From positions 1-64,000 of the forward strand of contig DASUWA010000058.1 of assembly GCA_036378675.1 (NCBI GenBank): 64,000 nucleotides of DNA, in the 5' to 3' direction. Made by a program: the position numbers and the translations under genes. This document shows, in pieces, positions 12,901 through 47,496 of the stretch; position 1 is the stretch's first letter; every line of letters starts with the position of its first letter. A model generated the notes under the pieces. It was given only the letters and a program-made list of their open reading frames with translations. It searched no databases and was not told the origin of the DNA. Source of the stretch: Acidimicrobiales bacterium (lineage in GTDB: Bacteria; Actinomycetota; Acidimicrobiia; Acidimicrobiales; Palsa-688).

Positions 12901-13305
12901 ATGGCGGTAGAAAACCGGGCGACGTTGGATGAAGTCCGAGAAGCGACTGCGGTCGCGGCCCGGGCAGCCTGGTCGAAGGGCGGTGCCGGCACGATCATCT
13001 TGTCGGTAGGGAAGGTTCTCGCCATCACCGACGCATTCGTTATCACCAGTGGGTCGAATCCGCGAATGGTGCGCACGATTGCCGAAGAGGTTGAGAAGAA
13101 GGTGAAGCTCGCGTCGTCCAGGTCGCCGCTCGCGATCGAAGGGCTCGACGATGCGCGTTGGGTACTCATGGACTATGGCGACTTCGTCGTGCACGTGTTC
13201 ATCGATGAGGCTCGAGAGTTCTACCAGTTCGACCGTTTGTGGGGCGACGCCGGGCGATGGGATTGGGATCCAGGAGATTCCGGCGCACTCGCGTCGGGAG
13301 AGTGA
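12901..13305 (+). CDS. rsfS: Ribosomal silencing factor RsfS (Iojap)
   Basis: 134 aa from the ATG at 12901; a GTG immediately before could add one residue. The protein has the Iojap fold, with ITDAFVITSGSNPRMVRTIAEEV and DYGDFVVHVFIDEAREFYQFDRLWGDA, both family hallmarks. Known role: it binds ribosomal protein L14 (uL14) on the 50S subunit and blocks subunit joining under nutrient limitation. It is the third gene of the nadD transcript. Confidence 0.96.
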   Translation: MAVENRATLDEVREATAVAARAAWSKGGAGTIILSVGKVLAITDAFVITSGSNPRMVRTIAEEVEKKVKLASSRSPLAIEGLDDARWVLMDYGDFVVHVFIDEAREFYQFDRLWGDAGRWDWDPGDSGALASGE

Positions 13306-13320
13306 AGCGGTAGCTAGCTC

Positions 13321-14094
13321 TTAAGCGCCGGTTGGTGGTTGCCACCAACCGTTGTCGGAGGTGGCGCTGTTTGTTGGAGGAACCGGGCCCCCCGTGGGCG
13401 GTAGCGGCGCGGGCGCCGGTGCGCTCGGTCCCTGTTGACCCGACCAGTCGCTGCACCAGCCGTAAGGATCGTATGGTCCGGTGCCCACGTGCCAGGAGTT
13501 CCAAGCCTCGTTCTCGTAGGCCGCGGGGCAAGGATCGGCGATCACGATCTCCGCGCTGTCGGGACACACGCCATCGCGGTGATAACAGGTCATCGCCTGA
13601 TGGCCCATCGCGTTCCCGGGGCAAACCAACGAGAACTCTGGGTTCGCGTGTTGCGCCAGGTATTGCAGCGCAGCCTGGCAGCCGAACCCGTTCTGAGTCG
13701 ACTGTTGGTAGACCTGGCCGACCGTCGACGAGCCGGACATCGAACCGCCGGCGTCATAGGCGGATGTCGCGGGCGGGTTGGTCGCTGGAGAAGCTGGCGA
13801 CTGCTTCGCGGACGGCACTCCTGCCGCAACGACAGTCGGTTGGGGCGTCGGTTCAGCGGAGGCAGCGGTGCTCACCGGCTCCGAGCCCACAGCGGATAAC
13901 GCGGCCGCGCGGTCCTGCTTGGCGACGTTGCCAGTCGACGCCGCTTGGAGGCCGTCGACCGATGATGCGGCGACACCTGCATGGGATGCCGAAGCGAGGG
14001 ACCGAACAGTCAAGTCCCCGGCTTGCGCGGCGAGCGCTCCGGCCCACACCACGCCGCCGATTGCCGCGACCGCGACCTTGTGTCTCAACGCCAT
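13321..14094 (-). CDS. Secreted protein of unknown function with six conserved-looking cysteines
   Basis: 257 aa. A signal peptide (about 1-26, ending AAQAG) precedes a long Ala/Ser/Thr/Pro-rich region to about residue 130. A compact Cys-containing domain follows (about 135-215), including FGCQAAL, LVCPGNAMGHQAMTCYH, GVCPDSAE, IADPCPAAYENEAWNSWH and GWCSDW, then a Pro-rich tail. Six cysteines suggest three disulfides outside the cell. I do not recognise the domain as an enzyme. The His/Asn/Trp-rich core could be a binding module. It is convergent with rsfS, separated by 15 bp, and marks the edge of the accessory island. Confidence 0.75.
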   Translation of the reverse strand: MALRHKVAVAAIGGVVWAGALAAQAGDLTVRSLASASHAGVAASSVDGLQAASTGNVAKQDRAAALSAVGSEPVSTAASAEPTPQPTVVAAGVPSAKQSPASPATNPPATSAYDAGGSMSGSSTVGQVYQQSTQNGFGCQAALQYLAQHANPEFSLVCPGNAMGHQAMTCYHRDGVCPDSAEIVIADPCPAAYENEAWNSWHVGTGPYDPYGWCSDWSGQQGPSAPAPAPLPPTGGPVPPTNSATSDNGWWQPPTGA

Positions 14095-14584
14095 CGCTTC
14101 CCCCAGCTTGCTGGCGAACCTGTTTTAGCCGATTAGGCCGGCTTTCCGAAAATTCGGCCCAGTAGTTCCTTTTGACGCGTGTTACACACCCGACGGCGCT
14201 GAGATTCGCCGCCGGGTGCGCGAATCTGGTTGACCCCTTCCCCGTGCAGGTGGCTCAGGTTTGTCCAGGTTTGCTGCGAAAAGCCACGCGTAGTTTAGAG
14301 ACGAAGCGACTCACCAAATCAAGACCAATTGTCGATATTTGCTCCATTTGACCTCGGCCATGCCTCCGCCTCGGGCACTGGAAATTCGCCAAACCAGAGC
14401 GTGAGGTTCGTCTCCTCTTTGATACATGCCTTTTTGGCACATGCCGGGCGGTTGGGAGCTCCCACACTTCCAGCCCAACGCTGCTGTCTCGGCCGGACAC
14501 TCTGTGTGTTTATCCTCTCACTACCGGCGCACACTTGACCTTATTGAGCGTGGCAGCGGAGGGGCGTTTTGCAACATATCGGTA

Positions 14585-14613
14585 TTGCAATGATGGTTTA
14601 TCCGATTTATGCT
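14585..14613 (+). promoter_or_regulatory. Candidate sigma-70-type promoter for the lanthipeptide operon
   Basis: TTGCAA (14585-14590) and TATGCT (14608-14613) are separated by exactly 17 bp, in the least GC-rich part of the leader and about 150 bp upstream of the LanKC start. This is a match by eye only, with no transcript data. Confidence 0.35.
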
Positions 14614-14677
14614 CTTTGCCATCTACCGGCGTCAACCGCTCGGCGCGGGAAGTTAGGTCGTGATGGTGAGGGAGGTC

Positions 14678-14726
14678 CTACAACACTGAGCCGGTAGCTC
14701 CAAGTACTACAACATTGCACCAGTAG
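14678..14726 (+). promoter_or_regulatory. Pair of direct-repeat dyads upstream of LanKC
   Basis: Two 20-bp sites, 14678-14697 and 14707-14726, agree at 16 positions. Each begins CTACAACA, ends GTAG, and so has the dyad form CTAC-N12-GTAG. They are 29 bp apart start to start and lie 38-86 bp before the LanKC start codon. Paired sites at this location are what a dimeric regulator would use; in Streptomyces the LuxR-type RamR binds repeated sites before ramC. No regulator gene is in this cluster, so the binding protein is unknown. Confidence 0.5.
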
Positions 14727-14763
14727 GCGGACAAGTCGCAGGGCACGGCGGCGACTCCAAGAG

Positions 14764-17484
14764 GTGTCGATCGTAGGTGACGATCCGCCTTCGGTGGAGC
14801 TGGGGAGAAGCAATGCACGTTGGCTCAGAGGGCTGCTCGCCGACTGTCGGTGGCCGTCCCGGTACCTGCGTAACGGCGGTGTGGGAGTAGTGGATCGCGG
14901 TTACGAGCACTACTGCCTCGTCGATCCGACGTTCTATGACTCTCCCTACCTGCGAAGACCAAACGATCCGGACCTCCGCGCTGCGCAGCGACCCGTTCCG
15001 TCAGGATGGCTGAGAGAAGAGCTGGGTGACTGGCTCGCCTATTCCCCGGACCCTGTTGAGCTGCCGTTGCAGGGCTGGAAGGTCCATGTCTCGGCGTGTC
15101 TCGACAATGCCGAGGACATAGGCGAGGCCGTATTCGACTACTGCGTCGCCAGGAAGTTGACGTTCAAGTTTGTCCGGAGCGTTCAGCTGCTCTTGTTGCG
15201 CAACGGCAAATACGCCGACCGAGCCTCGAGCGGAAAGTTCGCCGCGATATACGCGCGCGATGAATCCGAGCTGCAGAGCATCCTCGAAGGACTAGGCGAA
15301 AAGCTCGGTGGGCAACCGGGTCCTTACATACTGAGCGATCTCAGATGGGGGGACGGCCCGCTGTACGTCCGCTACGGCGGATTCGCCGAGCGATATTGCG
15401 TCGGAGAGTCGGGAGAGCAGGTACTCGCGATCGAGGATCCCACCGGTCGCCTGGTTCCGGATAAGCGCGGACCCCGATTCGAGCCTCCGTCTTGGCTCGA
15501 TCTGCCGTATTTCCTGGGTCCTCATCTTGCCGCCCGCAACGCCGTCACCGTCGACGAAATGCCGTACCAGATAGAAGAAGCGCTTCATTTCTCCAACGGA
15601 GGCGGGCTTTATGCAGGCGTCGATCGGCGCACCAACCGCCCAGTGGTGCTGAAGGAAGCTCGCCCTCACGCTGGCATCGCGTTGGACCGATCCGACGCAG
15701 TGACCCGGCTGGCCAGAGAGCACGACACCCTCCAAAGGCTGGCCGGGAATGGAATCGTGCCGGAGGTCCTCGACGGTTTCTCTCTTGGGGACCATCGGTT
15801 CCTCGTGTTGGAGAAAGTTGATGGCGAGCCTTTGCACTCAGCGTTCGTATCTCGCTACCCGTTGATTGCCTGGGCGCCGACCGACGAAGAGATCGCGTCC
15901 TATACGGCTTGGGCGCTCGATATCTACGAAAGAGTCGAAACCGCTGTCGACCTCGTCCACGATCGAGGGATCGTCATCGGGGACCTCCATCCAAACAACG
16001 TTTTGGTGACGCCGGACGGTGGCGTGGTGCTGCTCGACTTTGAAGCTTCGAGTCCTGTTTCCGACTGGGATCGTCAGACGATGGCTGATCCAGGGTTCAT
16101 GTCTCCGCCTGATCGATCCGGATTCGACGTCGATCGCTATGCCCTCGGATGTCTTGCCCTGTATTTGTTTCTTCCGTTGCCGACTCTCATGCGGTTGGCG
16201 CCGGCCAAAGTGGGCCAATTCAAAAGAGTGATTGCCGACGCGTTCCCCGTCCCGAAGAAGTTCCTGACGAAGGCGGTCGCGACGATCGCACCTGGCCGCC
16301 GACCCAGAGCTCCTTCTTGCTGGTCCGTTGACCCGAGCTGCGACGGCTGGTTGTCATCCCGAGCATCCGCCGCTCGGGCGATAATCGCCAGCGCCACCCC
16401 CGAACGCGACGATCGTCTGTTTCCGGGCGACGTGAAGCAGTTTGCCGAAGGTGGGCTCAACATCGCCCACGGGGCCTCCGGAGTGCTCTACGCGTTAGCC
16501 GTTACCGGGGCGGAGCGTCGTGAGGAACACGAGCAGTGGCTTTTGCGACATGCACTGTCCCCATCGACTGGCACGCGGTACGGTTTCTACGACGGTCTGA
16601 TCGGCGTTGCCTTCGTCCTCGATCGTCTGGGGCGGCGCGAGGAAGCGTTGAAAGTTTTGGAGCTTTCCATGCTCGACCTGCGCGGGAAATGGGCCCAGTT
16701 GGGAATAGATCTCTATGGTGGACTCGCCGGCATCGGGTTGGCCCTGATGCACTTTTCGACGGCGATAGAGGACAGCTCCTTGTGGGGTGAGGTGCTGTCC
16801 ATAGCCGACACCTTGTCAGGGCGGCTTGGGTCGGAGACGGCTGTTCCGGAGATCAGTGGCGGTGAGTCGGGTTTCGCAGGTCTCTTGAGGGGATCATCAG
16901 GCCCGGCGTTGTTTTACTTGAGGCTGTTCGAGCGAACAGGTGAGGCGGCCTTCCTAGACCTTGCTCGGACCGCGATCGGTCAAGACCTGCGTCGCTGCAT
17001 CATCCGGGATGACGGTGCCATGAATGTCGACGAGGGTTGGCGCTCGATGCCTTACCTGGGGGAGGGCAGCGTTGGGATCGGCATGGTCCTTGACGACTAT
17101 CTCATCCACCGCCAGGAGGAACAGTTTGTCGACGCCGCCGTCCGTATCCGGGGAGCCGCGGAGTCGCAGTTCTACATCGAGCCGGGCCTTTTCTACGGTC
17201 GGGCGGGAATGATCCTGTATTTGGCCCGCAAGCAAGCACCCGGCCAGGGCGGCGACGATCCCGTTGTGGCGGGGCAGATCCGACGGCTCGCGTGGCACGC
17301 GCTCTCCTACAAGGGCCATCTGGCGTTCCCAGGTGAGCAACTTCTCCGACTCTCGATGGATTTGGGGAGTGGCACAGCTGGAGTGCTGCTGTCCCTCGGC
17401 GCCGCGCTGCACGACAAAGCGGTGTCGCTCCCATTCCTCGAGAGTCGCTGCAACCCCGGCATTAGGCCACCAAGATCGGAATGA
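14764..17484 (+). CDS. lanKC: Class III lanthipeptide synthetase LanKC (RamC-like)
   Basis: 906 aa, the usual class III length. The order is N-terminal phospho-Ser/Thr lyase region (about 35-260, with EHYCLVDPTFYD at its start), a Ser/Thr kinase-like domain (about 270-540) and a LanC-like cyclase (about 560-895). The kinase shows VVLKEARP with Lys297, GDLHPNN at 406-412 and DFE at 425-427, the class III variant of DFG. The cyclase has GxxG-type helices (GESGFAGLLRG, GEGSVGIG, FYGRAGMILYLAR) but none of the zinc-ligand CHG signature of classes I, II and IV, as expected for class III. It should phosphorylate precursor Ser/Thr, eliminate phosphate and form lanthionine or labionin rings. The GTG at 14764 gives the expected N-terminus. 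The precursor gene starts 21 bp after its stop. Confidence 0.93.
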   Translation: MSIVGDDPPSVELGRSNARWLRGLLADCRWPSRYLRNGGVGVVDRGYEHYCLVDPTFYDSPYLRRPNDPDLRAAQRPVPSGWLREELGDWLAYSPDPVELPLQGWKVHVSACLDNAEDIGEAVFDYCVARKLTFKFVRSVQLLLLRNGKYADRASSGKFAAIYARDESELQSILEGLGEKLGGQPGPYILSDLRWGDGPLYVRYGGFAERYCVGESGEQVLAIEDPTGRLVPDKRGPRFEPPSWLDLPYFLGPHLAARNAVTVDEMPYQIEEALHFSNGGGLYAGVDRRTNRPVVLKEARPHAGIALDRSDAVTRLAREHDTLQRLAGNGIVPEVLDGFSLGDHRFLVLEKVDGEPLHSAFVSRYPLIAWAPTDEEIASYTAWALDIYERVETAVDLVHDRGIVIGDLHPNNVLVTPDGGVVLLDFEASSPVSDWDRQTMADPGFMSPPDRSGFDVDRYALGCLALYLFLPLPTLMRLAPAKVGQFKRVIADAFPVPKKFLTKAVATIAPGRRPRAPSCWSVDPSCDGWLSSRASAARAIIASATPERDDRLFPGDVKQFAEGGLNIAHGASGVLYALAVTGAERREEHEQWLLRHALSPSTGTRYGFYDGLIGVAFVLDRLGRREEALKVLELSMLDLRGKWAQLGIDLYGGLAGIGLALMHFSTAIEDSSLWGEVLSIADTLSGRLGSETAVPEISGGESGFAGLLRGSSGPALFYLRLFERTGEAAFLDLARTAIGQDLRRCIIRDDGAMNVDEGWRSMPYLGEGSVGIGMVLDDYLIHRQEEQFVDAAVRIRGAAESQFYIEPGLFYGRAGMILYLARKQAPGQGGDDPVVAGQIRRLAWHALSYKGHLAFPGEQLLRLSMDLGSGTAGVLLSLGAALHDKAVSLPFLESRCNPGIRPPRSE

Positions 17485-17505
17485 GCAAGGAAAGGAGGTG
17501 AACGG

Positions 17506-17649
17506 ATGTCGGTTCTCGACCTTCAGAGCATGAAGCAGAAGGCGCCGGCCAGCGGAGCAGGAGCTCGGAACAGCGGTGCGAGCAAGGGCTGCTTCCTGGG
17601 CGGTTCCGCTGGAGAAGGGCCAAGCACGTTGAGCCTTCTTCTCTGCTAG
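17506..17649 (+). CDS. lanA: SapB/RamS-like class III lanthipeptide precursor (47 aa)
   Basis: A 47-codon gene, short enough to be missed by standard gene calling. It has a near-ideal Shine-Dalgarno AAAGGAGGTG at 17491-17500, five bases before the ATG. The leader contains VLDLQSM at residues 3-9, the LxLQ recognition motif of class III leaders and very close to the Streptomyces RamS leader as I remember it. The C-terminal half holds two labionin-type motifs: S23-G-A-S26-K-G-C29 and S40-T-L-S43-L-L-L-C47. The second ends the peptide and shares SLLLC with the first ring of SapB. The two cysteines are the only ones present. Position between LanKC and two ABC exporters is exactly that of ramS. 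The mature product is predicted to be a two-ring, amphiphilic secreted peptide; a leader cleavage site is not obvious. Confidence 0.92.
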   Translation: MSVLDLQSMKQKAPASGAGARNSGASKGCFLGGSAGEGPSTLSLLLC

Positions 17650-17663
17650 TAGCGAATTGACCA

Positions 17664-17702
17664 GCTGGGACAGCCGCTACTTGGGGCCGCGGCTGTCCCA
17701 GC
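17664..17702 (+). terminator. Perfect 14-bp inverted repeat between precursor and exporter genes
   Basis: GCTGGGACAGCCGC (17664-17677) is matched exactly by GCGGCTGTCCCAGC (17689-17702), leaving an 11-nt loop. It begins 15 bp after the precursor stop. There is no T-run. A strong hairpin at this point would act as a partial terminator or 3'-end stabiliser, letting the small precursor mRNA exceed that for the exporters. Confidence 0.75.
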
Positions 17703-17788
17703 CACCACACAGAACCAGCCGGTGCCCCCCTGAGAGGGTCGGACAACCGGGGGTTCCACCAGACATCGTTCCACACGAAGCGGCGCTA

Positions 17789-19588
17789 ATGGAGGCAGCA
17801 GAGCCGGGCATGCCCGCCATCGACTCAGCAAGGGCGAAGGATCCAACCGCCGAGGCGGACCATAAGGCCGCTAACCGGCTGCTCCTGCTTGCCACCCGCC
17901 AAAGCGGGCCCTGGCTTGCAGTGCTCGCTGTGAGCGCTTTGCTACTCGCCGCTGCCTACGTTGTGCTGCCCGCGGTGATCGGGCTCGCGACCGACGCATT
18001 GCTCGGCCGAGCCTCAAAGTCTTGGCTCACCTGGCTAGGCGTGCTGGCCGTCGTTATGGTCTGCCTGGACGCGGCCGAGGATCTGGCGACCGGCGAGACG
18101 ACCGCCCATTCGACCGCCTGGTTGCGTCGAGCCGTGTTCCGACAGGTCCTTTCGGCGGGACCGAAGGCGGTCGAGCGGTTCGGCGCTGGGGACATTGGGA
18201 GCCGTCTAACCGGTAACTCGGCCGACGTCGGGCGAGTCGCTCCCGACGCTGTGCGAGCAGTAGCGAACGTGATCCCGTCGGCAGGAGCGTTAGTGGCGCT
18301 CGGAATAATCGACCCCTGGCTGTGCGTCACCTTCGTGATCGGACTTCCGATTCTTATGCTGTTAGTCCGGCTTTTCGCCCGTCGAGCAGCCGGGATCGCG
18401 CATGACTATCTGACGACGCAGGCCAAAATTGCCAACACCCTGGTGGAGGCCTTATCAGGGGCCCGGACGATAGCCGCGGCCGGGACCGCTGATCGTGAAG
18501 CGGAACGGGTTCTGCGCAATCTGCCCGAGCTCCGCGGACACGGCATGGCTCTGTGGCGGAGCCAGATCACTTTGATGACCCAGAACGCCGTCATCGTCTC
18601 CTTGCTGGAGGTCGCCGTCCTTGCAGTCGCCGGCGTGGAGGTCAGCAACGGCCGGATCACCCCCGGCGAACTGCTGGCCGCCAGCCAATACGTTGTGCTG
18701 GCAGCGACACTCGGACATACATCTTCCTCGTTATCTCGGATCACTCGAGACAGAGCAGCGGCTCGGCGAGTTTCCGAGCTTCTCGACACGGAGACCCGCA
18801 ACTACGGCACGCAAAACCTTCCGAGCGGACTCGGTCGGCTCGAGTTTCGCGACGTCACAGTTCGATCTGGCGATCTGGTTCTCCTTGACCGCATCAACCT
18901 GGTCTTGCCGGGAGGCACGCTCGTTGCGGTTGTTGGTGCCTCGGGTTCGGGAAAATCACTCCTGGGTGCGGTCGCCGGAAGGATGGTCGATCCGGACGAG
19001 GGTGACGTATTGCTCGACGGCGTGTCGCTTTCCGAGCTCTCTCGTCACCTTCTGAGAAGCGTAGTTACCTACGGTTTCGAGAGGCCCTCTCTCATCGGTG
19101 ACACAGTCAGCGCGGCGATCCGATTGGGTGTGTTCGAGCCGACGGAGCGAGAAGTTCAAGCGGCTGCCCAGGCTGCACGGGCGGACGGGTTTATTCGCCA
19201 TTTTCCACGAGGATACGAAACCCCGCTTGTAGAGGCTCCCATGTCCGGGGGGGAGGCTCAGCGAGTGGGATTGGCGAGAGCATTCGCCCACGCCGGCCGT
19301 TTAATCATCCTGGACGATGTTGCAGCCAGCCTTGACACGGTCACCGAACACGAGGTCACTTCGACGCTTACTACGGAGCTGCGTGACCGAACCCGGATCG
19401 TCATAGCGCACAGGGCGTCCACCGCCGCACGAGCAGACTGCGTGGTCTGGATGTACAAGGGACGCATCCAAGAGGTCGCTCCGCATGATGAGCTCTGGCA
19501 CGATCGAGCCTACCGAGCGCTCTTCAATAGCGAAGACGAAGACACGGACCTCGCCAGTGCATCGCCCCGGTCGGGATGGTTGCAATGA
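17789..19588 (+). CDS. Lanthipeptide ABC exporter subunit 1 (RamA-like), TMD-NBD half-transporter
   Basis: About 599 aa. Six membrane helices (about 35-310) precede an ATP-binding domain with Walker A VGASGSGKS near 382, signature MSGGEAQR near 484 and Walker B LIILDDVAASLD near 507, followed by an H-loop IAHRAS. The residue after the Walker B Asp is Asp, not the catalytic Glu, so this site is probably degenerate and pairs with the canonical second subunit. No N-terminal C39 peptidase is present, as in RamA/RamB. The ATG at 17789 is chosen; the open frame runs back to a TTG at 17657 but would translate through the hairpin. It exports the lanthipeptide with the next protein. Confidence 0.87.
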   Translation: MEAAEPGMPAIDSARAKDPTAEADHKAANRLLLLATRQSGPWLAVLAVSALLLAAAYVVLPAVIGLATDALLGRASKSWLTWLGVLAVVMVCLDAAEDLATGETTAHSTAWLRRAVFRQVLSAGPKAVERFGAGDIGSRLTGNSADVGRVAPDAVRAVANVIPSAGALVALGIIDPWLCVTFVIGLPILMLLVRLFARRAAGIAHDYLTTQAKIANTLVEALSGARTIAAAGTADREAERVLRNLPELRGHGMALWRSQITLMTQNAVIVSLLEVAVLAVAGVEVSNGRITPGELLAASQYVVLAATLGHTSSSLSRITRDRAAARRVSELLDTETRNYGTQNLPSGLGRLEFRDVTVRSGDLVLLDRINLVLPGGTLVAVVGASGSGKSLLGAVAGRMVDPDEGDVLLDGVSLSELSRHLLRSVVTYGFERPSLIGDTVSAAIRLGVFEPTEREVQAAAQAARADGFIRHFPRGYETPLVEAPMSGGEAQRVGLARAFAHAGRLIILDDVAASLDTVTEHEVTSTLTTELRDRTRIVIAHRASTAARADCVVWMYKGRIQEVAPHDELWHDRAYRALFNSEDEDTDLASASPRSGWLQ

Positions 19589-21492
19589 GCAGTTCCTCGT
19601 CGCGGCCACTAATTCGGAGCCTCCTCGCCGGCTCGATGAAGGCTCGGATGCCAATCGTGCGGTCGCTCATTGGCTGGTCAGCGATCCAGGCCATTCCGGC
19701 CCTGCTATCGGGTCGTCTGGTAGCTCAAGCAATCGACCATGGCTTTCTCGCCCACAGCACCCGCGTGGGCTTATTGTGGCTGGTTGCTCTCGCCGCATCG
19801 CTGCTGGTCGGAGCGTGGGGAAGGCGGCGCGCCTACCAGCGCCTCGCGTCTCTGACTGAACCGTTTCGCGATGAGTTAGTCACCACAGCGGTGCGCGGAG
19901 CGCTCCGGGACTGTGCATCCGGGTCCCGCTCGGACACCGGGTCCGTCGCCCGCCTGACCCGGCACATCGAGATCGCGCGGGAGGCCTATGCCAGTGTCTT
20001 CATGGTCGCGCAGGCGTTCGTAGTGTCGGCCGTGAGCGCACTGCTCGGATTGTTCAGCCTCATGCCTGCGGTGCTTGTCTTCGTTCTGCCACCGTTGCTC
20101 GGCGGACTTGTGGTCTTCGTTGTGGCTCTAAAGCGGACCGCGTCGCAGCGTCGTTTGTCCCTGCTCGTCGAGGAGCGGATCGCGGAGGCTACGGGTGAGT
20201 TCGTGGACGGTCTGCGGGACATTGTTGCGTCGGGCGCGGAGGACATCGCGTCGACACGTGCGGACGAGGAGATCCGCAGGCAGGCCATCGCTACGGTCCA
20301 GGTGGCGCGGTTCACCGCGGTCCAGACGGGCGCGATTGCGCTTGGCGGGTGGCTGCCGGTCGTCCTGATCCTCGCTGGTGGCTCGTGGCTAAGGAGCAAC
20401 GGAGCGACCATCGGGGTCATCCTTGGCGCGTTGACGTACGTTCTCCGAGGTGTGCAGCCAGCGCTCGAGGCGCTGATTCGCGGCGTGGGAAGCAACGGCC
20501 TATGGCTGCTCGTCACCCTGGAGCGAATCGTGGAGGCTATCGGCACGGACGCTGGCGTATCTGCTAGCCGGGGCGGCGACGGCTCGCGCCGGTCTGCGGT
20601 CTCGGGGGAGCCGGATCAGGGGAACGGCAGTGCGAGAGTATCGAGCGCCGAAGTTCCAGGCGTGACGCTAAGCGACGTCTCCTTCGGGTACGGGCCCGAG
20701 CCAGTGATCCACGGTCTCAACCTCAACATTCCGCCAGGCGATCATCTAGCCGTCGTCGGCCCCAGCGGGGTGGGAAAATCGACCCTCGCAAACTTGATGG
20801 CCGGGCTCCTGGAGCCGCAAGCCGGCCGGATAACAATCGGCGGGAAACCTGTCAGCGAGCTCGACCACGTCGTCCTGACCAGCACTCGGTCGTTGATACC
20901 CCAGGAGGCGTATGTCTTCGTAGGGACCCTCTGGGATAATCTCGTCTATCTGCGCCCCGACGCGGGTGAATCGGAGGTGGAAGCCGCGGCGGCAGCCGTT
21001 GGGATGACACCTCTAGTTGAGAGGGTGGGCGGCTACCGGGCTGAGCTCGCCCCGCGGGCGCTGTCAGCTGGCGAACGTCAGCTTGTCACCCTCGCTCGTG
21101 CGTACCTCTCGCCGGCGCGTCTGTTCATCCTGGATGAAGCTACCTGCCACCTGGATCCGATCTCTGAAGCCCGAGTCGAGAACGCTTTTGCTCGTCGCGG
21201 GGGGACAGTCGTGGTGGTCGCTCATCGAATCAGCTCGGCCCGTCGAGCCAAGCGAATCCTGGTCATGGACGGAGTCCGGGCGGCTGTGGGCACGCACGAG
21301 TCGCTCGTGCTCGAGTCGAAACTCTACCGGGATCTCGTCGGTCACTGGACAGCCGGAGACTTGGCTGAGCCTGACCCTTCTGTTACGAACGGCCACCTCC
21401 CCGGCAGGACTAACGGAGCGGGAAGCCCGCTGGGAAACGGGAAGCATGCCGGTGATCTGCGCTCCAAGCCTTTACGAGCCAGACCGGGTTGA
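19585..21492 (+). CDS. Lanthipeptide ABC exporter subunit 2 (RamB-like), TMD-NBD half-transporter
   Basis: 635 aa from the ATG at 19585, which overlaps the upstream stop as ATGA; an ATG three codons earlier is possible. A six-helix membrane domain (about 25-310) is followed by a linker and an ATPase domain with Walker A VGPSGVGKST near 392, signature LSAGERQ near 493, canonical Walker B LFILDEATCHLD near 513 and H-loop VVAHRISSA. The intact Glu after Walker B complements the degenerate partner. A C-terminal tail of about 45 polar residues is unusual. The coupling of starts and the domain asymmetry support a heterodimeric exporter. Confidence 0.9.
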   Translation: MSSSSSRPLIRSLLAGSMKARMPIVRSLIGWSAIQAIPALLSGRLVAQAIDHGFLAHSTRVGLLWLVALAASLLVGAWGRRRAYQRLASLTEPFRDELVTTAVRGALRDCASGSRSDTGSVARLTRHIEIAREAYASVFMVAQAFVVSAVSALLGLFSLMPAVLVFVLPPLLGGLVVFVVALKRTASQRRLSLLVEERIAEATGEFVDGLRDIVASGAEDIASTRADEEIRRQAIATVQVARFTAVQTGAIALGGWLPVVLILAGGSWLRSNGATIGVILGALTYVLRGVQPALEALIRGVGSNGLWLLVTLERIVEAIGTDAGVSASRGGDGSRRSAVSGEPDQGNGSARVSSAEVPGVTLSDVSFGYGPEPVIHGLNLNIPPGDHLAVVGPSGVGKSTLANLMAGLLEPQAGRITIGGKPVSELDHVVLTSTRSLIPQEAYVFVGTLWDNLVYLRPDAGESEVEAAAAAVGMTPLVERVGGYRAELAPRALSAGERQLVTLARAYLSPARLFILDEATCHLDPISEARVENAFARRGGTVVVVAHRISSARRAKRILVMDGVRAAVGTHESLVLESKLYRDLVGHWTAGDLAEPDPSVTNGHLPGRTNGAGSPLGNGKHAGDLRSKPLRARPG

Positions 21493-21583
21493 CGTGACGT
21501 CTACGTAGCCCGGGCGGCCCGGAGGCGTAAGCACCCGGGCCGATGAGATGTATCAGGGGGCTGTGTAACCGCTCTCATTCCCG

Positions 21584-21790
21584 ATGACTTGCCGGGTTAC
21601 CCCGTGGCGCGGGGCGCGCCATCGAAGCAGTCCCATCAGGCCTTTCGATGTAGTCCCGGGTCATCTTGTGGATGCCGCGAAGCGGATCTTCAAGCTCTTC
21701 AAGCCCTCGACGATCGCCCAACTGGCCAGCGACGGTTCGACCGGAGCCGTGCCGCCGGTCGCAGGGGGCGCAGGCCCCCCATCGGACTAG
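21584..21790 (+). CDS. 68-aa protein with PFDxVPxxLVxAAKR motif closing the lanthipeptide cluster
   Basis: A 68-codon frame from an ATG at 21584, three bases upstream of the next gene's GTG. The N-terminus is Arg-rich. Residues 19-38 read RPFDVVPGHLVDAAKRIFKL, and the tail is Ala/Gly/Pro-rich. The same pattern, QPFDTVPPELVEAAKRLF, occurs in the 93-aa protein at 59696-59977 downstream of the sigma factor, with a degenerate match in the 57796-58224 protein. Agreement at the protein level between distant loci supports real coding despite a poor ribosome-binding site. The single Cys (residue 3) and absence of a leader motif argue against a second lanthipeptide precursor. Its function is unknown; an amphipathic helix for protein binding is plausible. 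Confidence 0.6.
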   Translation: MTCRVTPWRGARHRSSPIRPFDVVPGHLVDAAKRIFKLFKPSTIAQLASDGSTGAVPPVAGGAGPPSD

Positions 21791-21793
21791 GTC

Positions 21794-22912
21794 GTGTACC
21801 TTCCTGCCCCACCTGTGACACCGGGCTCGGACGTCGCGACCGGCGCCACAGTCGTCGACTTGACCCGTCTGGAGGTCGTTCCTGCTCGAGCATCGGGCCG
21901 GCGCAGGCTCGTCATCCGGATGACCGTCGGGCTTCTAATCGGTGCTGCTCTCGTGCTGGTCTTCCTGAGGTTCATCAACCTCGGTGCGGCCCTGCGCCGG
22001 GTTGAGCATCTCAACCCGTGGGTTGCGCTGCTCAGCGGGCTGGTGTTCCTCAGCGCGTACGCAGTACGCGCGCTCCGCTGGCGTCGGTTCCTCGCGCCGG
22101 ATGAGGTACCAGTTCACAGAGTCGTGTCGATCTATCTCGTAGCGGTCTTCCTGAACTGGGCGTTGCCAATCCAGGGCGGCGAGCTAGCCAAGACCGCCAT
22201 CCTCCGGCAAACAAACGGCATCCCTGTGAGCCGGTCGCTCGGGACGGTGAGCATGGACAAGGCGATGGATCTGCTACCGGGAGTAGCGCTCCTCATGGTG
22301 GTGCCTTTTGCTCATCTCCAGCTGAGCGGTGCTCTGTGGTTCATGTTGCTCATGGCCTCGGTTGGGTTCGTCGGCCTGATCTTCGTGCTCACCTTCGCCG
22401 CCTGGAGAAGGGATCGAGCGCTCGCCTGGATTTCCAGGGCCGTGGTCATCATGCTCCCCCGACGTCTGTCCGAGCGTGTCAATCCGTTCGTCGCCCAGTT
22501 CGTCGACACGATGTTGCGGCTGGTTCGCCAGCCGCGTCTCATGCTTATCGCCTCGATGTACACCGCGGTCGCCGCCTGCCTCGATGCGCTCTTTTGCTAT
22601 CTGGCGTTCCGGGCAGTAGGTACCACCATCCCTATCGGGGTCGCCTTCTACGGGTACACCTTCTACAACCTCGCGTACATCCTCCCGACACCGCCCGGGC
22701 ACGTAGGCACGAATGAGGTCGTCGGATTGTTGGTGTTCTCCGGTGTATTCGGTGTTCGCCGGTCGGCCGTCGGTGCCATGTTCCTGTTCTCGCACCCTTG
22801 GACGGGCCTTCTCATGACGACCAGTGGGCTGATCGCCCTGAAGATAGTCGGTTTGAGAATCCCCGCCGCGCTCGCGATCGGATCGGACAGCAAGGGCGAG
22901 GCGGAGAAATGA
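21794..22912 (+). CDS. Flippase-like integral membrane protein (LPG synthase TM / UPF0104 family)
   Basis: 372 aa with about eight hydrophobic helices. The family (PF03706-type) is recognised from VFLSAYAVRALRWRRFL, LNWALPIQGGELAKTAIL with its conserved Gly-Glu, and the late NLAYILPTPPGHVGTNEV motif, where PxxPGxxGxxE is typical. Members transfer or translocate lipid-linked groups at the membrane, and in polysaccharide clusters they usually accompany glycosyltransferases, as here. No C-terminal aminoacyl-transferase domain is present, so lysyl-PG synthesis is excluded. The GTG start lies three bases after the upstream small gene. It opens the glycan-assembly block. Confidence 0.85.
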   Translation: MYLPAPPVTPGSDVATGATVVDLTRLEVVPARASGRRRLVIRMTVGLLIGAALVLVFLRFINLGAALRRVEHLNPWVALLSGLVFLSAYAVRALRWRRFLAPDEVPVHRVVSIYLVAVFLNWALPIQGGELAKTAILRQTNGIPVSRSLGTVSMDKAMDLLPGVALLMVVPFAHLQLSGALWFMLLMASVGFVGLIFVLTFAAWRRDRALAWISRAVVIMLPRRLSERVNPFVAQFVDTMLRLVRQPRLMLIASMYTAVAACLDALFCYLAFRAVGTTIPIGVAFYGYTFYNLAYILPTPPGHVGTNEVVGLLVFSGVFGVRRSAVGAMFLFSHPWTGLLMTTSGLIALKIVGLRIPAALAIGSDSKGEAEK

Positions 22913-22976
22913 ACCGCCCGTTATTACAACGACAGACAACTGACAGCACCGTAAGACTCAGCAAGGGGCACGTTAG

Positions 22977-23747
22977 ATGGGCGATCTGAAACCAGAAGTT
23001 AGCGTCATAGTTCCCACCAAGGACGAGGCAGAGTGCGTCGAGCCTCTAGTGGAGCGTTTAGTCGCCGCACTAAGCGGTATCTCCGCGGAGATCATCTTCG
23101 CCGACGACAGCAGCGATCACACGCCCTCGATCATCGAGAAGGTATCTGACACTGCGGTGGTGCCCGTCATTTGCGTCCATCGACCTCCCGGAGAGCGAAC
23201 GGGCGGTTTGGGCGGGGCCGTCGTTGCTGGGTTGCGGGTGGCTTCTGGAGAATTTGCCGTCGTGATGGACGGCGACCTCCAACACCCACCAGAGTGTGTT
23301 CCACTATTGGTCGAGGCTCTCAACGTTCAGGCGTTTGATTTAATTGTCGCCAGCCGGTACTCCGATGGAGGACAGGCCGGTGGGCTGAGCAATCAAACTC
23401 GAAGAACCGTTTCCCGCGCGGTTACGGACTTGGCGCGGGTGATGTTCCCGAGGCGGCTCCGAGCGGTGTCGGATCCGATGAGCGGCTTCTTCTCCTTTCG
23501 GATCGCTGCCGTCGACATCGAACGACTTCGGCCGATCGGCTACAAGATCCTGCTCGAGGTCATCTTGCGAACCAAGTATCTGCGGGTCGGAGAAATCGGG
23601 TTTGACTTTGCGCCACGGTTCGGCGGAACGAGCAAGGCGACTTTCCGTGAGGGTATGCGCTTCCTCGTACACATCTTCCGTCTACGCGTCGCAACCGTCA
23701 TTAGGTTCCGGCGACCCGTCGGACCGCTTCAAGTAGCGCACGCCTGA
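22977..23747 (+). CDS. GT2 glycosyltransferase, polyprenyl-phosphate mannose synthase type
   Basis: 256 aa with a complete GT-A catalytic fold and no membrane helices. Key elements are VIVPTKDEAECVEPLVERL, the IFADDSSDHT first aspartate pair, VMDGDLQHPPE carrying the metal-binding DxD, and SDPMSGFFSFR. These are diagnostic of DPM1/Ppm1-like enzymes that make polyprenyl-phosphate sugars as donors. Such a donor would feed the two multi-spanning glycosyltransferases downstream, which use lipid-linked sugars. The gene has a good ribosome-binding site (AAGGGG) and lies 64 bp after the flippase-like gene. Confidence 0.9.
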   Translation: MGDLKPEVSVIVPTKDEAECVEPLVERLVAALSGISAEIIFADDSSDHTPSIIEKVSDTAVVPVICVHRPPGERTGGLGGAVVAGLRVASGEFAVVMDGDLQHPPECVPLLVEALNVQAFDLIVASRYSDGGQAGGLSNQTRRTVSRAVTDLARVMFPRRLRAVSDPMSGFFSFRIAAVDIERLRPIGYKILLEVILRTKYLRVGEIGFDFAPRFGGTSKATFREGMRFLVHIFRLRVATVIRFRRPVGPLQVAHA

Positions 23748-23792
23748 TATGGAAGCTTTGACGGGGTTGGGGGAGGCCAGGGAGGGAGGGCC

Positions 23793-26700
23793 GTGAGTAT
23801 CGAGACTGAGCGTCCTCCGGCTGAGTCCGCCTCCGCGGACTATTGCCTCAGCCTCGAGGAGCACGGCCTCGAACTCGAAAACTCGCCTAACGGTCAGGAA
23901 ACGGGGGTGAGGGACGTCCGCGGCTGGCTCGGACCGGAGCCCGCCGCACGCGTCTCCAGACTGCTGGTACTCAGCGTGTTCGCTGCGGTGCTGTGGCTCT
24001 TCTTGGAGAGGCCCAGGCCCTGGGAGCCGTTTCTCGCTCTAGGACTTGTCAGTGTTGTGGTCAGTCGAAATCGCCGCGTGCGCCACTGGGGTCCCTTTGC
24101 GTTCGTCCATCAAAGGATCGGACAGACGGTCACAGCGAGGAGCCAACGGCTCCGGCGCGGTGGAGGGCTCATTGCCAAGATGCTCGGTTGGTGGAGCGGA
24201 GCGCCCGACTCGCTGAGGGTGACCGTAGCAGCGCTCCTGGCGCTCAACACGGTGATCGCCGCCACCTTGCTGCACAGGAATGTTCTCGTGTTCTTGGCGA
24301 TGGCTTGTCTGAACTTCCTCGCCCTGACCCTGGTGCCCGACGTCCGTCCGCACGCTGTCGAGCCTGAGGAGATTCGGGTCCCATCTAGTCCACCGGGACC
24401 TGTGAGGGATTTCGTGCCGAGTGAGGGTCGGTCAGAGTCGAAGCTCATTTCGCTTCCGTCGCTTCGGCCGTTCCCAACTCTGCACGCTCCAGGGTGGGAC
24501 ACGTGGGAGAGTTGGGACAGCCTCAAGCCTCCGGAGTTACCTCAGTCAGCAACGGTCGACCCCCGAGGCGAGAGCCTCGGAGACGAAAGATCGGTCGTCA
24601 CTCTGGGGATGGATCTTGACGACTCAGCCGCTGCCCTGGATCGACGATTGGACTCCGCGGACACCGGGGACTCCGTGGATTCCCGGGACGCGGCGGGCGC
24701 CGAGGACGTCGGGGACGCCGAGCCCGATACCGAGGAGGTGCGGCGGCATCCAGGCGTCGTTCGGTTCCTCGAAAGGTTCAATTCCATGGCGTCGGTTGGG
24801 GTCCTCGTCGTGGCTGGGGGATGGATCGCGTACGCCCACCCCGGTCCGTTCCTCATCCCGTGCGTACTGGCTATCGGCCTGGGCTTCATGCTCGTGAACA
24901 AGGCCAATCGCGACGAGACCGTCCGGATGGTGCTCGCGCTCGGAGTGGTGGTCGGTGGGATCGACTATGTGAGTTGGCGGTTCGTCGTGACCAACTGGAG
25001 CGGCTGGTGGATCGCGATACCACTTCTGGGAGCAGAGACGCTGGGAGCAATCCACGTGCTTGGCTTTCAGGTCACTCTGTGGCCTTGGGAGGCACCCAAG
25101 ACGCGACAACTGGACGACCCGACGCAATTCCCGATCTTCATCCTCGTCCCAACTCTCAATGAAGGCCCGGAGGTATTGCGGCCGACGGTTCAGGCGTGTC
25201 TCGTCGCACGCGAGCGTTATGTCGCTCAACATCCGAACGCACGCGTGAGAGTGATCGTCTGCAACGACGGTCGAGCCGCCGGTTACTCCGATTGGAAAGA
25301 AGTCGAGTCCATGGCTCGGAGCCTCGGGGCAGCGTGCGTGAGCAGACGCCACTCCGGGGGCGCTAAAGCCGGAAACATCGAACACGCTCGTCGATGCTTC
25401 AGGATCACCCGCAAGGCTCTCCTCGTCATATTTGACGCTGACCAGGTTCCTAGCTCCAACTTTCTTCTGAGGACAGTTCCGTCCTTCGCGGATCCGAAAG
25501 TGGGTTGGGTTCAGACGGGTCAGTACTACGCCAACCGGACGAATCCCGTGTCGCGTTGGGCGGACGACCAGCAATCGTTGTTCTACAACTTGCTTTGCCC
25601 AGGCAAGGCGGCGCACAACTCCGCCTTCATTTGCGGTACCAATGTTGTAATCCGAGCGGCCGCCCTCGACGAGATTGGCGGATTACCACAGAACTCGGTG
25701 ACGGAGGACTTCGCGGCGTCGATAGCCTTGCACGCGCGGTGGCAGGGCATTTACTTGACCGAGGTGCTCGCCACGGGACTTGGACCTCTCGATCTTCCGT
25801 CATATCTCAAGCAGCAGCGACGCTGGGCTGTCGGAACGCTCGGTGTTCTGAGAACTAACTGGCGGGACATCTTCTTGCCTAAACGAGGTGGACTGCGAGG
25901 AATACAGCGAGTCCAGTACTTCCTTGCGTGTACGCACTATCTAAGCGGGATCAGAGACGTCGTGTACCTCGTCTGCCCGATGATATTCATAGCGACCGGC
26001 GTGCCCGCGGTCCGCAGTGCCAGTCTCGGTCAGTACCTCTCGCATTTCGTGCCATACGGGATTCTCAGCTATTCCGCTCTCTGGTACTCCGCGCGGGGCG
26101 TCACGGGCCTCAGGGGAATCGTGATGGGTTTCGGAAGCTTTCCTACACTCGTTGCGAGCTTCATCACGGTTGCCAGCGGGCGGAGGGCGTCATTTGCCGT
26201 AACCGCCAAGCGGCGACACGCCAAGCAGTCTCTCAGGTACCTGCGTACCTACATCCTGTGCGCCTTGGCGTGCCTTGGCACGATCGTCTGGGCCACCCAG
26301 GTGGGCGCCCGACAGCACGCGTCGATGTTTATCAGCCTGTGGTGGGTCGTCTATACCTTGCTGATGCTGAGTGCGTTCTTGTGGCTGGCCATAAGTGACC
26401 TTCGCACCCAACGAGCTCAGTCACAGGGTCCTCAGATCAGCGAAACGAGCTCGACAACTCCGTACCCGTCTCGGCTCGAACATCGGCCCGTTGGGCTTCG
26501 GCCCGTATGGAACCTCGGTGCGGCAGCACTCTTGGCTGTCCCTCTTCTGCTAGCGGGGCAACTGAAATCGGCCGGGCTGTTCGCTCCAGAGGCCTCCAAA
26601 CAATTCGCAATCGGGGTTGGACATCCGGGCGCTCCGTACGCCGGGGTGTCAATCCCAGCGCAGTTGTTGAGCATCGAAAGGCAGTTGGTCGCCGAAGACT

Positions 26701-31059: not shown

Positions 31060-32217
31060 GTGAAAGCTGACCTGCTAGATGGCAAACGGCGCCGATTCGG
31101 GGGCGAATTCGCCGCCAGTGGCGCGCGGTCGCGAGAAAAGTTGGCTTCAACCGCGTCGGCGCCACGGAGAACAAAGGGCCGGGAGCGGTCTTCCGACGAC
31201 GCGTTGCTCTCGTGCAGCGTCGGCATCATGGCGTACAACGAGGAAGCCAACATCGCCGAAGCAATCACTAGCGTGCTCAATCAGCAGGTCTCGTGTGGGA
31301 AGGTCGCCGAGCTGATTGTGGTCGCCAGCGGCTGCACCGACTCGACCGTCGAAATCGTCGCGGGGCTCGCGGCTGTTGACCCCCGGATCCAACTGATCGT
31401 TCAGGAGGAGCGGGCGGGCAAGGCTTCGGCGATCAACCTCTTCATCGAGGCTGCCCGGTCCCCGATTCTTCTCATGGTCGGCGCTGACACCGTGGTAGCT
31501 TACGGGTCCGTCGGCGAGCTGCTCCAGCACTTCAAGGACCCCACGGTCGGAATGGTGGGTGGCCACCCGGTTCCGGTCAATGACGACGAGACTTTCATTG
31601 GCCACTCGGTTCACCTTCTGTGGCGGCTTCACGACCGGATTGCCCGGCGGACACCGAAACTAGGGGAGATCGTCGCATTCCGGAACGTCATCACTGGCAT
31701 CCCTTCAGATACTGCAGTCGACGAGATCTCTATCGAAGTCGCCATTAACGAACTCGGGTATCGGCTGGTGTACGAAACGCGAGCCTTCGTTTACAACAAG
31801 GGACCGACGACGGTTGCCGATTTCCTTAGGCAGCGACGGAGGATCGCGGCCGGGCATCATGAAATCGCCAAGCAGGACGGCTATGTCGCCTCCACCATGA
31901 GCGTGTGGCGCATCGTTCAAATCGGTCTTCGGTCGGTTATCTGGACCCTAGGCGCGGTGGCCCTCGAGGGAACGGCTAGGGGGCTGGGCTATTACGACTT
32001 CCGCCGGCACCGACCGCATCACATTTGGGAAACGGTCAGCACCACGAAGACGAACATAGCTGAGCAAGTAAGCGCCGTGCGAAGTACAGGAAGGTTACCG
32101 GCCACCCGCGATGATTCGAATGAGCCCTGTGGCGACGTTGTGGTCGACCTAACTGCAAGTTCTCGGCTCTCCCACTTGGATCGCACGTCCGAGGAGGTCC
32201 GATCGTCGTGGGGATGA
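31060..32217 (+). CDS. GT2 glycosyltransferase
   Basis: 385 aa. After a basic, probably cytosolic N-terminus of about 45 residues, a GT-A domain begins at SVGIMAYNEEANIAEAI, with VVASGCTDSTVEIV, a variant metal-binding GADTVV (GAD in place of DxD) and a QRRRIAAGHHEIA element in the QxxRW position. One or two hydrophobic segments lie after about residue 290. It adds a sugar to a growing lipid- or surface-linked glycan; the acceptor is unknown. The GTG start at 31060 has a weak ribosome-binding site, and an internal start nearer the catalytic domain is possible. Its stop overlaps the radical SAM gene start by 10 bp. Confidence 0.85.
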   Translation: MKADLLDGKRRRFGGEFAASGARSREKLASTASAPRRTKGRERSSDDALLSCSVGIMAYNEEANIAEAITSVLNQQVSCGKVAELIVVASGCTDSTVEIVAGLAAVDPRIQLIVQEERAGKASAINLFIEAARSPILLMVGADTVVAYGSVGELLQHFKDPTVGMVGGHPVPVNDDETFIGHSVHLLWRLHDRIARRTPKLGEIVAFRNVITGIPSDTAVDEISIEVAINELGYRLVYETRAFVYNKGPTTVADFLRQRRRIAAGHHEIAKQDGYVASTMSVWRIVQIGLRSVIWTLGAVALEGTARGLGYYDFRRHRPHHIWETVSTTKTNIAEQVSAVRSTGRLPATRDDSNEPCGDVVVDLTASSRLSHLDRTSEEVRSSWG

Positions 32218-46661: not shown

Positions 46662-47223
46662 TCGATCAACTGAAGGTCAGGGCCGCGCCGATGCGTGGAG
46701 CGGTCTCGCCGTGTCTGGCTGTGCGAATGTCACCTAGAGCGAACTCCATAACGATGTTGAGAGGAAGCAGGCGCTGGTTTGATACATTGGCGCCCGGATT
46801 TGCGGACTCCCCGGACTGTGAAGGCCGCGCGGGCGGGGCCGGGGCGAGGCGTGCTACTCGTCGAACCCGTAGGTTTTCCCCACCTACTTCCCGCGCTTTT
46901 CCCCAAGTTCATCCACTGGACTTTGGCCGCGCATGTGCTTTGATAAACGACGGCCGACGGCCCCTGACAAGGAAAACGTGCGGCCGACCCATCGAGGGGG
47001 AGGATCTGAGTCCCGGCGGTTGTTGCGGGCTTCCAGACCCCGCGACAAGGAACTGCCGGAGGAGCCGTGTCCCTCCGGCCGCTGGAGACCCCCGTCCGAC
47101 CTCTCGGGGGTCTCCATTCCTTTCCGGGGTTTGGTTCGAGCCCGCGGGCGCCCCCGCCGATTCGGACTGAAAGCAGTGACATGGCGCCGGCTGGCCCCTG
47201 AAGCGCCGGCGGGTGCCTGGAAG
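46662..47223. other. 562-bp non-coding region with strong hairpins
   Basis: Open frames here lack ribosome-binding sites and family resemblance. I looked for tmRNA, RNase P and SRP hallmarks and found none. Towards the tRNA end are two adjacent hairpins (47055-47115), listed separately. A pyrimidine-rich strip near 46870-46905 contains TTTTCCCC twice. Confidence 0.65.
47055..47115. terminator. Two consecutive strong hairpins near the tRNA gene
   Basis: GCCGGAGG (47055-47062) pairs with CCTCCGGC (47072-47079) around a 9-nt loop. GGAGACCCCCG (47084-47094) pairs perfectly with CGGGGGTCTCC (47105-47115) around a 10-nt loop, and is followed on the plus strand by ATTCCTTTCC. Read on the minus strand they lie 109 bp past the tRNA 3' end, so they may end the tRNA transcript; read on the plus strand they could terminate an unseen small RNA. 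Confidence 0.5.
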
Positions 47224-47296
47224 TGGAGCTGACGGGAATCGAACCCGTGGCCTCTACAATGCCATTGTAGCGCTCTACCAACTGAGCTACAGCCCC
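47224..47296 (-). tRNA. tRNA-Ala (anticodon GGC)
   Basis: A 73-nt cloverleaf on the minus strand. The acceptor stem GGGGCTG pairs with CAGCTCC and includes the G3:U70 wobble pair that is the main alanine identity element. The anticodon stem-loop CTACA-ATGGCAT-TGTAG has GGC at 34-36, reading GCC. The T-arm is ACGGG-TTCGATT-CCCGT. The discriminator is A and no CCA is encoded. Confidence 0.97.
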
Positions 47297-47496
47297 GCAA
47301 CGGAGCCCCCAAAGCTACCACTGGCGCGCAGATGGCGTCGCCGTCACACCCGCTTCATATCGTCTCGGTCCATGAGTGGGACACCTTCGGAAGTGGGCGC
47401 CCGCACCGGGTGTCACTTGCGCCTCGGCCCGACCCTGAATAACCAATCGAAGGGCATCCGCTTTGCCGCCGACTACGCGGTCGGTACATTCGAGCC

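Follow-up and report, generated by a model that had tools for sequence, protein, structure and literature searches.

SapB-type peptides have so far been viewed as tools of Streptomyces development, and the locus described here raises the question of what role such peptides might have without an aerial hypha. It lies in a 64,000-nucleotide stretch of DNA from an Acidimicrobiales bacterium (contig DASUWA010000058.1; this whole stretch is called the window below), where genes for a LanKC synthetase, a 47-amino-acid precursor and two ATP-binding cassette (ABC) exporter halves (ABC1 and ABC2) follow one another on one strand at 14764-21492, in the ramC-ramS-ramA-ramB order of the SapB/AmfS family. 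An earlier, sequence-only reading had described the cluster at these coordinates as a class III, ram-type system with a SapB/AmfS-family precursor in an actinobacterium other than Streptomyces, and both the gene order and the profile matches bear this out. We regard it as almost certainly a real and complete class III lanthipeptide cluster. The same reading predicted a product distinct from SapB, which agrees with the polar first ring of the peptide. Its proposal that the locus extends the SapB morphogens is not supported: the synthetase belongs to a separate lineage, the first ring (ring A) is polar, no ramR adjoins the cluster, and chaplin and SsgA profiles find no match in the genome. The SapB/AmfS family is already known and the polar-ring cluster is a variant of it; a polar ring of the same kind is also present in Streptomyces. 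The explanation that we favour, at somewhat better than even confidence, is that of a class III cluster of a distinct sub-lineage whose amphiphilic product would act at the cell envelope or surface and not in an aerial-hypha programme.

The precursor (17506-17649, plus strand; MSVLDLQSMKQKAPASGAGARNSGASKGCFLGGSAGEGPSTLSLLLC) has the leader VLDLQSM and two Ser-x2-Ser-x2/3-Cys motifs, and its ATG is preceded by a strong ribosome-binding site, AAAGGAGGTG (17491-17500), all as the earlier reading had noted. That reading reversed the order of the rings: SGASKGC (ring A, 17572-17592) is the first ring of the peptide and STLSLLLC (ring B, 17623-17646) is the second. Compared with the RamS/AmfS profiles, as had been proposed, the precursor exceeds both curated cut-offs, with 32.1 bits against Pfam RamS (PF19402; cut-off 24.3) and 29.9 bits against NCBIfam SapB/AmfS (NF033212; cut-off 25). 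The combination of an LxLQ-type leader with two SxxSx(2-5)C core motifs occurs in one of the 1404 start-stop combinations of 28-80 codons in the 64-kb window, and in none of 73445 from 40 dinucleotide-preserving shuffles of it. Since S-x2-S-x(2-5)-C is the motif definition given for class III cores in the available portion of PMC11251773, ring A (SxxSxxC) falls within the known range. The 27 residues from Arg21 contain six Ser/Thr, and a loss of four waters from the core is a reasonable guess only. With such a loss, the computed monoisotopic masses are 2509.22 for a core beginning at Arg21 and 2239.08 for one beginning at Ser23. The mean hydropathy is -0.29 for SGASKGC and +1.92 for STLSLLLC; both rings are positive in all 14 SapB-like peptides compared.

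By its sequence, this precursor is a member of a SapB/AmfS sub-lineage in which the first ring, S[G/R]ASK[G/Q]C, is polar and basic and the second is hydrophobic and resembles SxxSLLLC. We found eight such precursors, three in the order of the window and five in Streptomycetaceae. The former are those of the window (RNSGASKGC...STLSLLLC), G138 (RNSGASKGC...SGLSLLLC) and G809 (KSGASKGC...SRLSLLLC); the homologues in Streptomycetaceae are those of Streptomyces sp. KN37 (SRASKQC...SRYSLLLC), G1192 (SRASKGC...SRLSLLLC), G1111 (SGASKQC...SGLSLLLC), G1265 (SRASKGC...SLFSLLFC) and G1057 (SRASKGC...SALSLLC, with extra C-terminal residues). RNSGASKGC and LSLLLC are identical between the window and G138. 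The Lys of ring A is invariant in all eight, and the charge of the ring is +1 or +2. Precursors beside the synthetases of relatives are of several kinds, among them a SapB-like kind with two hydrophobic rings (e.g. GSRASLLLCGDSSLSVTTCN). Mean Kyte-Doolittle values for ring A are -0.69 in the eight polar-ring precursors and +1.54 in 14 SapB-like ones, and for the last ring +1.73 and +1.34, respectively, in a set that leaves aside the five precursors of L003, those of L053, L054, L064 and L067-L070, a chance open reading frame (ORF) of L052, and variant or repeated copies. All eight polar-ring precursors have GGAGGTGA ahead of the start codon, a feature shared among the other precursors compared only by that of G830. 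NF033212 matches eight of eight precursors (seven polar-ring ones and that of G830) at E 0.01, its cut-off having been checked for the window only.

The same gene order and the same precursor type recur in G138, G809, KN37, G1192, G1111 and G1265. The earlier reading had held that relatives should share the labionin motifs, and the clusters of G138, G809 and G830, the three others found in the order, do have two Ser-x2-Ser-x2/3-Cys motifs each. The KN37 cluster is on a plasmid (NZ_CP139046.1) and its precursor (WP_223772607.1) is annotated by NCBI as a SapB/AmfS family lanthipeptide; like those of G1192, G1111 and G1265 it shares with the window the ring pattern and the GGAGGTGA site, and its synthetase and exporters fall in the sister clade, but the four synthetases are 54-56% identical to that of the window and a RamR-like regulator adjoins ABC2 on the opposite strand. 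A tblastn search of plasmids with the 47-amino-acid precursor gave no match, probably on account of its short length and divergence; KN37 was found through LanKC, which matched 36 plasmid records, seven of which were fetched. A profile of three polar-ring precursors matched 12 of 297 genomes of family f78, which we took for Streptomycetaceae because the synthetase and RamR of one member, G1111, are 77% and 84% identical to those of KN37. Four of the 12 (G1192, G1111, G1265 and G1057) hold polar-ring precursors, and the other eight hold different kinds. G1111 has a polar-ring and a SapB-like precursor in one genome, each flanked by synthetase and ABC1 fragments, and therefore the two types are not interchangeable or simple replacements of each other. 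The strings SRASKGC, SGASKGC, SRASKQC and SGASKQC were not found in open-licence literature, nor did a search of it find a paper that brings class III lanthipeptides together with Acidimicrobiales or uncultured actinobacteria. One lanthipeptide cluster, with class and host unnamed, is counted among Actinobacteriota clusters in an excerpt of PMC8692599; no cluster like that of the window is described in the excerpts of that paper or of PMC9903846.

The synthetase, LanKC (lyase-kinase-cyclase; 14764-17484, plus strand), is of class III, with 1070 bits against NCBIfam NF038151 (cut-off 575) and 360 bits against the class IV LanL profile, under the cut-off of 650. Its RamC_N, Pkinase and LANC_like domains all exceed the Pfam cut-offs, and the kinase motifs are KEARP, GDLHPNN and LLDFE. 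LRGSSGPA and FYGRAG stand at what we presume to be the sites of the LanC zinc motifs, and the enzyme would therefore be metal-free, like other LanKC. Eight residues (K106, H108, K135, K149, K158, D192, R203 and R235) match eight of eight lyase residues of ThurKC (Lys65, His67, Lys94, Lys108, Lys117, Asp152, Arg163 and Arg191) that are conserved in labionin-forming class III synthetases according to the available portion of PMC10604976; the residues were paired by counting along a HMMER alignment in which chain indices differ from the published numbers by a constant 3. ThurKC (PDB 8sao, 8sap, 8sam) thus resembles the window protein in its lyase-kinase-metal-free cyclase layout and in these eight residues, but it is a Bacillus enzyme for another substrate and a distant homologue (259 bits). 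Class III synthetases of this group yield lanthionine, labionin or both, as stated in an excerpt of PMC13380574. Labionin in the product is possible, with lanthionine fitting the sequence as well.

Trees of the synthetase and of the exporters agree in pointing to a separate polar-ring lineage. In a tree of full-length LanKC proteins (29 rows, without G1057 and without G581, whose LanKC is split over two pieces), the window groups with G300, G138 and G809 (98/97) and KN37 with G1111, G1192 and G1265 (100/99). The joint clade of eight (98/97) is apart from nine Streptomycetaceae rows (100/100), six of them with a SapB-like precursor, and the window synthetase thus lies outside the clade with SapB-like precursors. 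G300, whose contig ends before a precursor is visible, is placed in the group by the synthetase trees alone. A tree of C-terminal LanKC regions (35 rows, 347 columns) adds G1057 and eight loci with LanKC ends and leaves out the distant rows L007-L009; it has a polar-ring clade of nine including G1057 (97/91). Because the RamC and AmfT reference proteins are absent from the full-length tree (they are in neither synthetase tree), RamS-like loci were added to the C-terminal one. These loci (L062, L063, L065 and L071), whose precursors end in GSRASLLLCG[DN]SSLS[VL][TV]TCN, are in a separate clade of 14 (100/100). The exporter tree, in which G1192 and G1265 have incomplete ABC2 rows, has a polar-ring clade of seven (99/99), the window with G138 and G809 (98/98), and four Streptomyces rows together (100/100). 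The position of G830 is unsettled, since it is next to the polar-ring clade in the full-length LanKC tree (91/93) and weakly so in the C-terminal one (80/68), while in the exporter tree its partner, with weak support, is YIM121038 (77/88) instead of the polar-ring clade.

The synthetase is sparsely distributed. The window genome (G000; 4.1 Mb, 97% complete) is of the same phylum as f78, in another class. In partly overlapping class and order samples, LanKC exceeds the curated cut-off in three of 395 class-sample genomes (G000, G138 and G300) and is matched at E 1e-60 in four of 397 order-sample genomes (G000, G138, G809 and G830); in the phylum sample it is matched at E 1e-60 in ten of 396, the window's own included. 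None of the 17 other genomes of the window's own family in the order sample has a LanKC. In the family of G138, whose synthetase is 57% identical to that of the window, two of six genomes have one, and G328, of the same genus as G138, does not. LanKC-like proteins at L007, L008 and L009 (G197, G221 and G212) score 425-452 bits, under the class III cut-off of 575, and are about 33% identical to the window LanKC over the first half of the window protein; they are perhaps class IV or another lyase-kinase-cyclase type. At L003:11668-12488 (Nonomuraea harbinensis), five tandem precursors with LxLQ leaders lie behind one LanKC.

Next we consider the genes that accompany SapB in development. A search with KN37 RamR as query (E 1e-10) found no RamR-like gene at 13001-24000 of the window or in the stretches of G138, G809 and G830, and the contig of G300 ends before the relevant side. 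RamR-like regulators are found beside ABC2 in G1111, G1192, G1265 and SGAir0924, and a response regulator in KN37. Chaplin and SsgA profiles have no match in G000, nor in a 14-genome control panel that was silent too, while the positive controls G512 and G1192 give six and six chaplin matches and seven and eight SsgA matches. In a seven-genome set, chaplins occur in G512, G1192 and G830 and SsgA in G512 and G1192; neither was found in G138, G809, G300 or G942. Of the six Acidimicrobiia-like genomes tested, G830 alone bears chaplins, and its precursor is of the ordinary SapB-like kind. The pairing of chaplins with a SapB-like precursor in G830, and of a polar ring with no chaplin in G000, G138 and G809 (and G300, as judged by its synthetase), is a hint only.

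G830 also deserves mention in its own right. This genome of 6.4 Mb, of the same order as the window, has a SapB-like precursor with two hydrophobic rings at L073:8651-8788 and five chaplin-domain matches over cut-off (L079, L080 and L081), and the chaplin at L081:2038-2691, on a 150-kb contig, ends in a candidate LPVTGG sorting signal. It may represent a lineage with chaplins outside the Streptomyces class, contamination being an alternative.

The two exporter genes overlap, ABC1 (RamA-like; 17789-19588, in an ORF that opens at 17657) being followed by ABC2 (RamB-like; 19576-21492), both on the plus strand. ABC_membrane and ABC_tran exceed their cut-offs on ABC1; on ABC2, ABC_tran does so and ABC_membrane reaches 23 bits, under its cut-off of 28. 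In the Walker B motif of ABC1, Asp replaces the catalytic Glu (LDD for LDE) in 12 of 12 proteins compared, and ABC2 keeps the Glu of the canonical LDE in 12 of 12, so that the pair look like a heterodimer. Neither carries a Pfam peptidase domain, and the leader would therefore be cut by a protease encoded elsewhere.

In the explanation that we favour, LanKC would bind the LxLQ leader helix, phosphorylate core Ser and then eliminate the phosphate, and close SGASKGC and STLSLLLC into thioether rings of the lanthionine or labionin type; it is very probable that two rings are made. An unlinked protease would remove the leader and the ABC1-ABC2 heterodimer would export the peptide, and we are equally confident that these two ABC proteins are its route out of the cell. 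The product would be an amphiphile, in which a linker, often rich in Gly, joins a small polar ring bearing the invariant Lys to a very hydrophobic one, and would act at the cell envelope or surface as a surfactant, a coat or a membrane-active peptide. An amphiphilic role of this kind seems to us slightly short of an even chance. Several observations weigh against this explanation as a whole. The window core from Ser23 has a net charge of 0, with one Glu in the linker, and therefore "basic" is true of ring A and not of the whole core. A leader protease was not recognised among the neighbours of the cluster, no genome-wide search for one having been made. The Streptomyces-type, chaplin-bearing genome G1192 also holds a polar-ring cluster, which might still serve aerial growth there and speaks against a simple split by function. 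Finally, an amphiphilic shape would fit an antimicrobial or a signal too.

The most serious competitor is a membrane-active antimicrobial, whose basic ring would bind anionic lipids or lipid-linked intermediates while the hydrophobic ring inserts, with the exporters giving immunity. The invariant Lys and positive charge of ring A are consistent with this, as is the patchy distribution on a variable stretch, which is usual for bacteriocin-like cargo; but no separate immunity gene was recognised among the 19 ORFs of that stretch scanned with Pfam (a part of its ORFs, four of which had no match), and strong antibacterial activity is not a known trait of the SapB family. We think this explanation improbable, though to be taken seriously. 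A true SapB-like morphogen, a peptide that would lower surface tension for aerial or emergent filaments, could claim the ram gene order, the SapB/AmfS profile match and an SLLLC ring that resembles the SRASLLLC ring of the RamS-like precursors of L063 and L065. The morphogen reading is nevertheless weak, and we consider it unlikely, given a synthetase outside the clade with SapB-like precursors, a polar first ring, the lack of a RamR-like gene within 13001-24000, the lack of a chaplin or SsgA match in a genome analysed alongside two positive controls, and the ordinary SapB-like precursor of the chaplin-bearing G830. In the accessible part of PMC13380574, variants of durhapeptin with Leu35 changed to Thr have no activity, and a polar ring is therefore unpromising for the same job. 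More probably, the peptide is related to the one that serves aerial growth but has another task.

Another idea is that of a secreted population signal, which the same excerpted report (PMC13380574) puts forward for the species-selective activity of durhapeptin; however, no two-component or receptor gene was recognised by the cluster in the window, G138 or G809 (ORF lists by eye, with Pfam on the window side), and we give this idea a small chance. Decay or silence of a cluster inherited by transfer would be in line with the synthetase being found in none of the 17 other family members searched, but all four ORFs are intact, the catalytic and ring residues are conserved and the ribosome-binding site is strong, which makes it very improbable, and RNSGASKGC has been kept exactly between the window and G138 at 57% synthetase identity, which argues for selection.

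Among known systems, SapB and AmfS (ramCSAB-ramR and amfTSAB-amfR) share with the window the synthetase-precursor-ABC-ABC order, the LxLQ leader, the two SxxSx(2-5)C motifs and the NF033212 and Pfam RamS matches. The window differs from them in a first ring that is polar, with Lys, instead of hydrophobic, in its separate synthetase and exporter branch, in having no adjoining ramR, and in coming from a genome that neither chaplin nor SsgA profiles match. Durhapeptin (dur cluster, Streptomyces durhamensis) is likewise made by a class III synthetase from a precursor with an LDLQ leader and two labionin-type motifs, and the dur cluster is described as resembling ramCSAB-ramR in the portion of PMC13380574 at hand; both its motifs are SxxSxxxC and hydrophobic, whereas the first motif of the window is SxxSxxC and polar. 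According to an excerpt of a 2013 survey of about 100 actinobacterial genomes, most streptomycetes have ram clusters, other complex genera have them sporadically, and ramR is confined to streptomycetes (PMC4255298). As a tentative and rather doubtful generalization, the polar-ring peptides might form a second functional line of SapB-family lanthipeptides, with a polar basic ring, a mostly Gly-rich linker and a hydrophobic ring, serving as a head-and-tail amphiphile on the envelope of actinobacteria outside the Streptomyces class that are without chaplin/SsgA machinery; the cassette would have moved between their order and Streptomycetaceae, a family in which it is found beside a true SapB system in at least one species. 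The eight precursors provide a ready alignment for chemistry, with ring A and its Lys conserved and the linker variable in length.

The cluster is located in a variable, low-GC stretch (13269-47222) between rsfS and tRNA-Ala(ggc) (47223-47296, minus strand; conserved in G942). Of 12 family relatives searched, G942 has the highest LeuRS and NadD identity (82% each). Its DNA similarity to the window runs to window position 13268 (rsfS) and resumes at 47223 (tRNA-Ala), and the interval measures 33,954 bases in the window and 6,526 in G942. The two intervals share no ORFs of at least 80 amino acids at E 1e-15. This picture comes from one comparison, because nadD and leuS are on different contigs in ten of the 11 other relatives and the eleventh has no LeuRS match. 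GC per 2-kb bin is 0.586-0.654 from 14 to 48 kb versus 0.655-0.697 in the left flank, and the right flank (0.621-0.668) overlaps the range of the stretch; GC at third codon positions (GC3) is 0.69-0.73 in the four lan genes and 0.85-0.89 in four flanking genes. The cluster was probably acquired as a cassette and likely gained by transfer. An integrative element was considered and is not shown, since 14-mers from 47101-47400 revealed no tRNA-Ala attachment repeat elsewhere in the window; no integrase was found among the 19 ORFs scanned with Pfam, and the region is described as a variable stretch only.

Details of gene calling and expression were also considered. Although the LanKC ORF opens at 14764, a GTG at 14890 is the more likely start, because the profile match opens at residue 47 and the G809 ORF begins there; similarity to G138, which extends back to residue 28, counts against this choice. 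The ABC1 ORF opens with TTG at 17657, and its similarity by descent to KN37 ABC1 starts only at 17855 (residue 11 of the KN37 protein), so that ATG 17789 or 17810 is a likelier start. A 14-bp perfect inverted repeat 3' of the precursor (17664-17702, plus strand) is a candidate processing or attenuation hairpin. Such a role is a possibility only, because a terminator scan of 14000-22000 found one site (minus strand, inside lanKC; fewer than the shuffle mean of 5.5) and none at the hairpin. Perfect repeats of at least 11 bp occur within 170 nt past the precursor stop in six of nine loci (not in G138, G809 or G1192). A sigma-70 promoter scan of 14000-22000 found none. TTA codons (one in lanKC, five in ABC1 and three in ABC2) are not taken as evidence of bldA-type control, because they could result from the low GC3 of the stretch.

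The clusters of G138 and G809 lie near the same genes, on opposite sides of a PAC2-like gene (by eye), with neighbours that we take to be an lhr-like helicase, a PAC2-like protein and an M1-like peptidase. A radical SAM/SPASM gene in the window (32208-33377) was rejected as a tailoring enzyme, being 10.7 kb from ABC2 among glycosyltransferases, and no similar gene was recognised beside the G138 or G809 clusters in ORF lists read by eye. The stretch 13269-47222 may be a hot spot for cargo. The 19 other ORFs scanned with Pfam, four of them without a match, mainly encode glycosyltransferases, PMT-like proteins, epimerases and dehydrogenases. The part at 21794-46661, with glycosyltransferases, PMT-like proteins, a lysylphosphatidylglycerol-synthase-type membrane protein, epimerases and the radical SAM/SPASM gene, looks like a surface glycan locus, and at 34521-37262 there is a 913-amino-acid protein that combines a Vgb-lyase-like domain with long linkers of Thr/Ser repeats.

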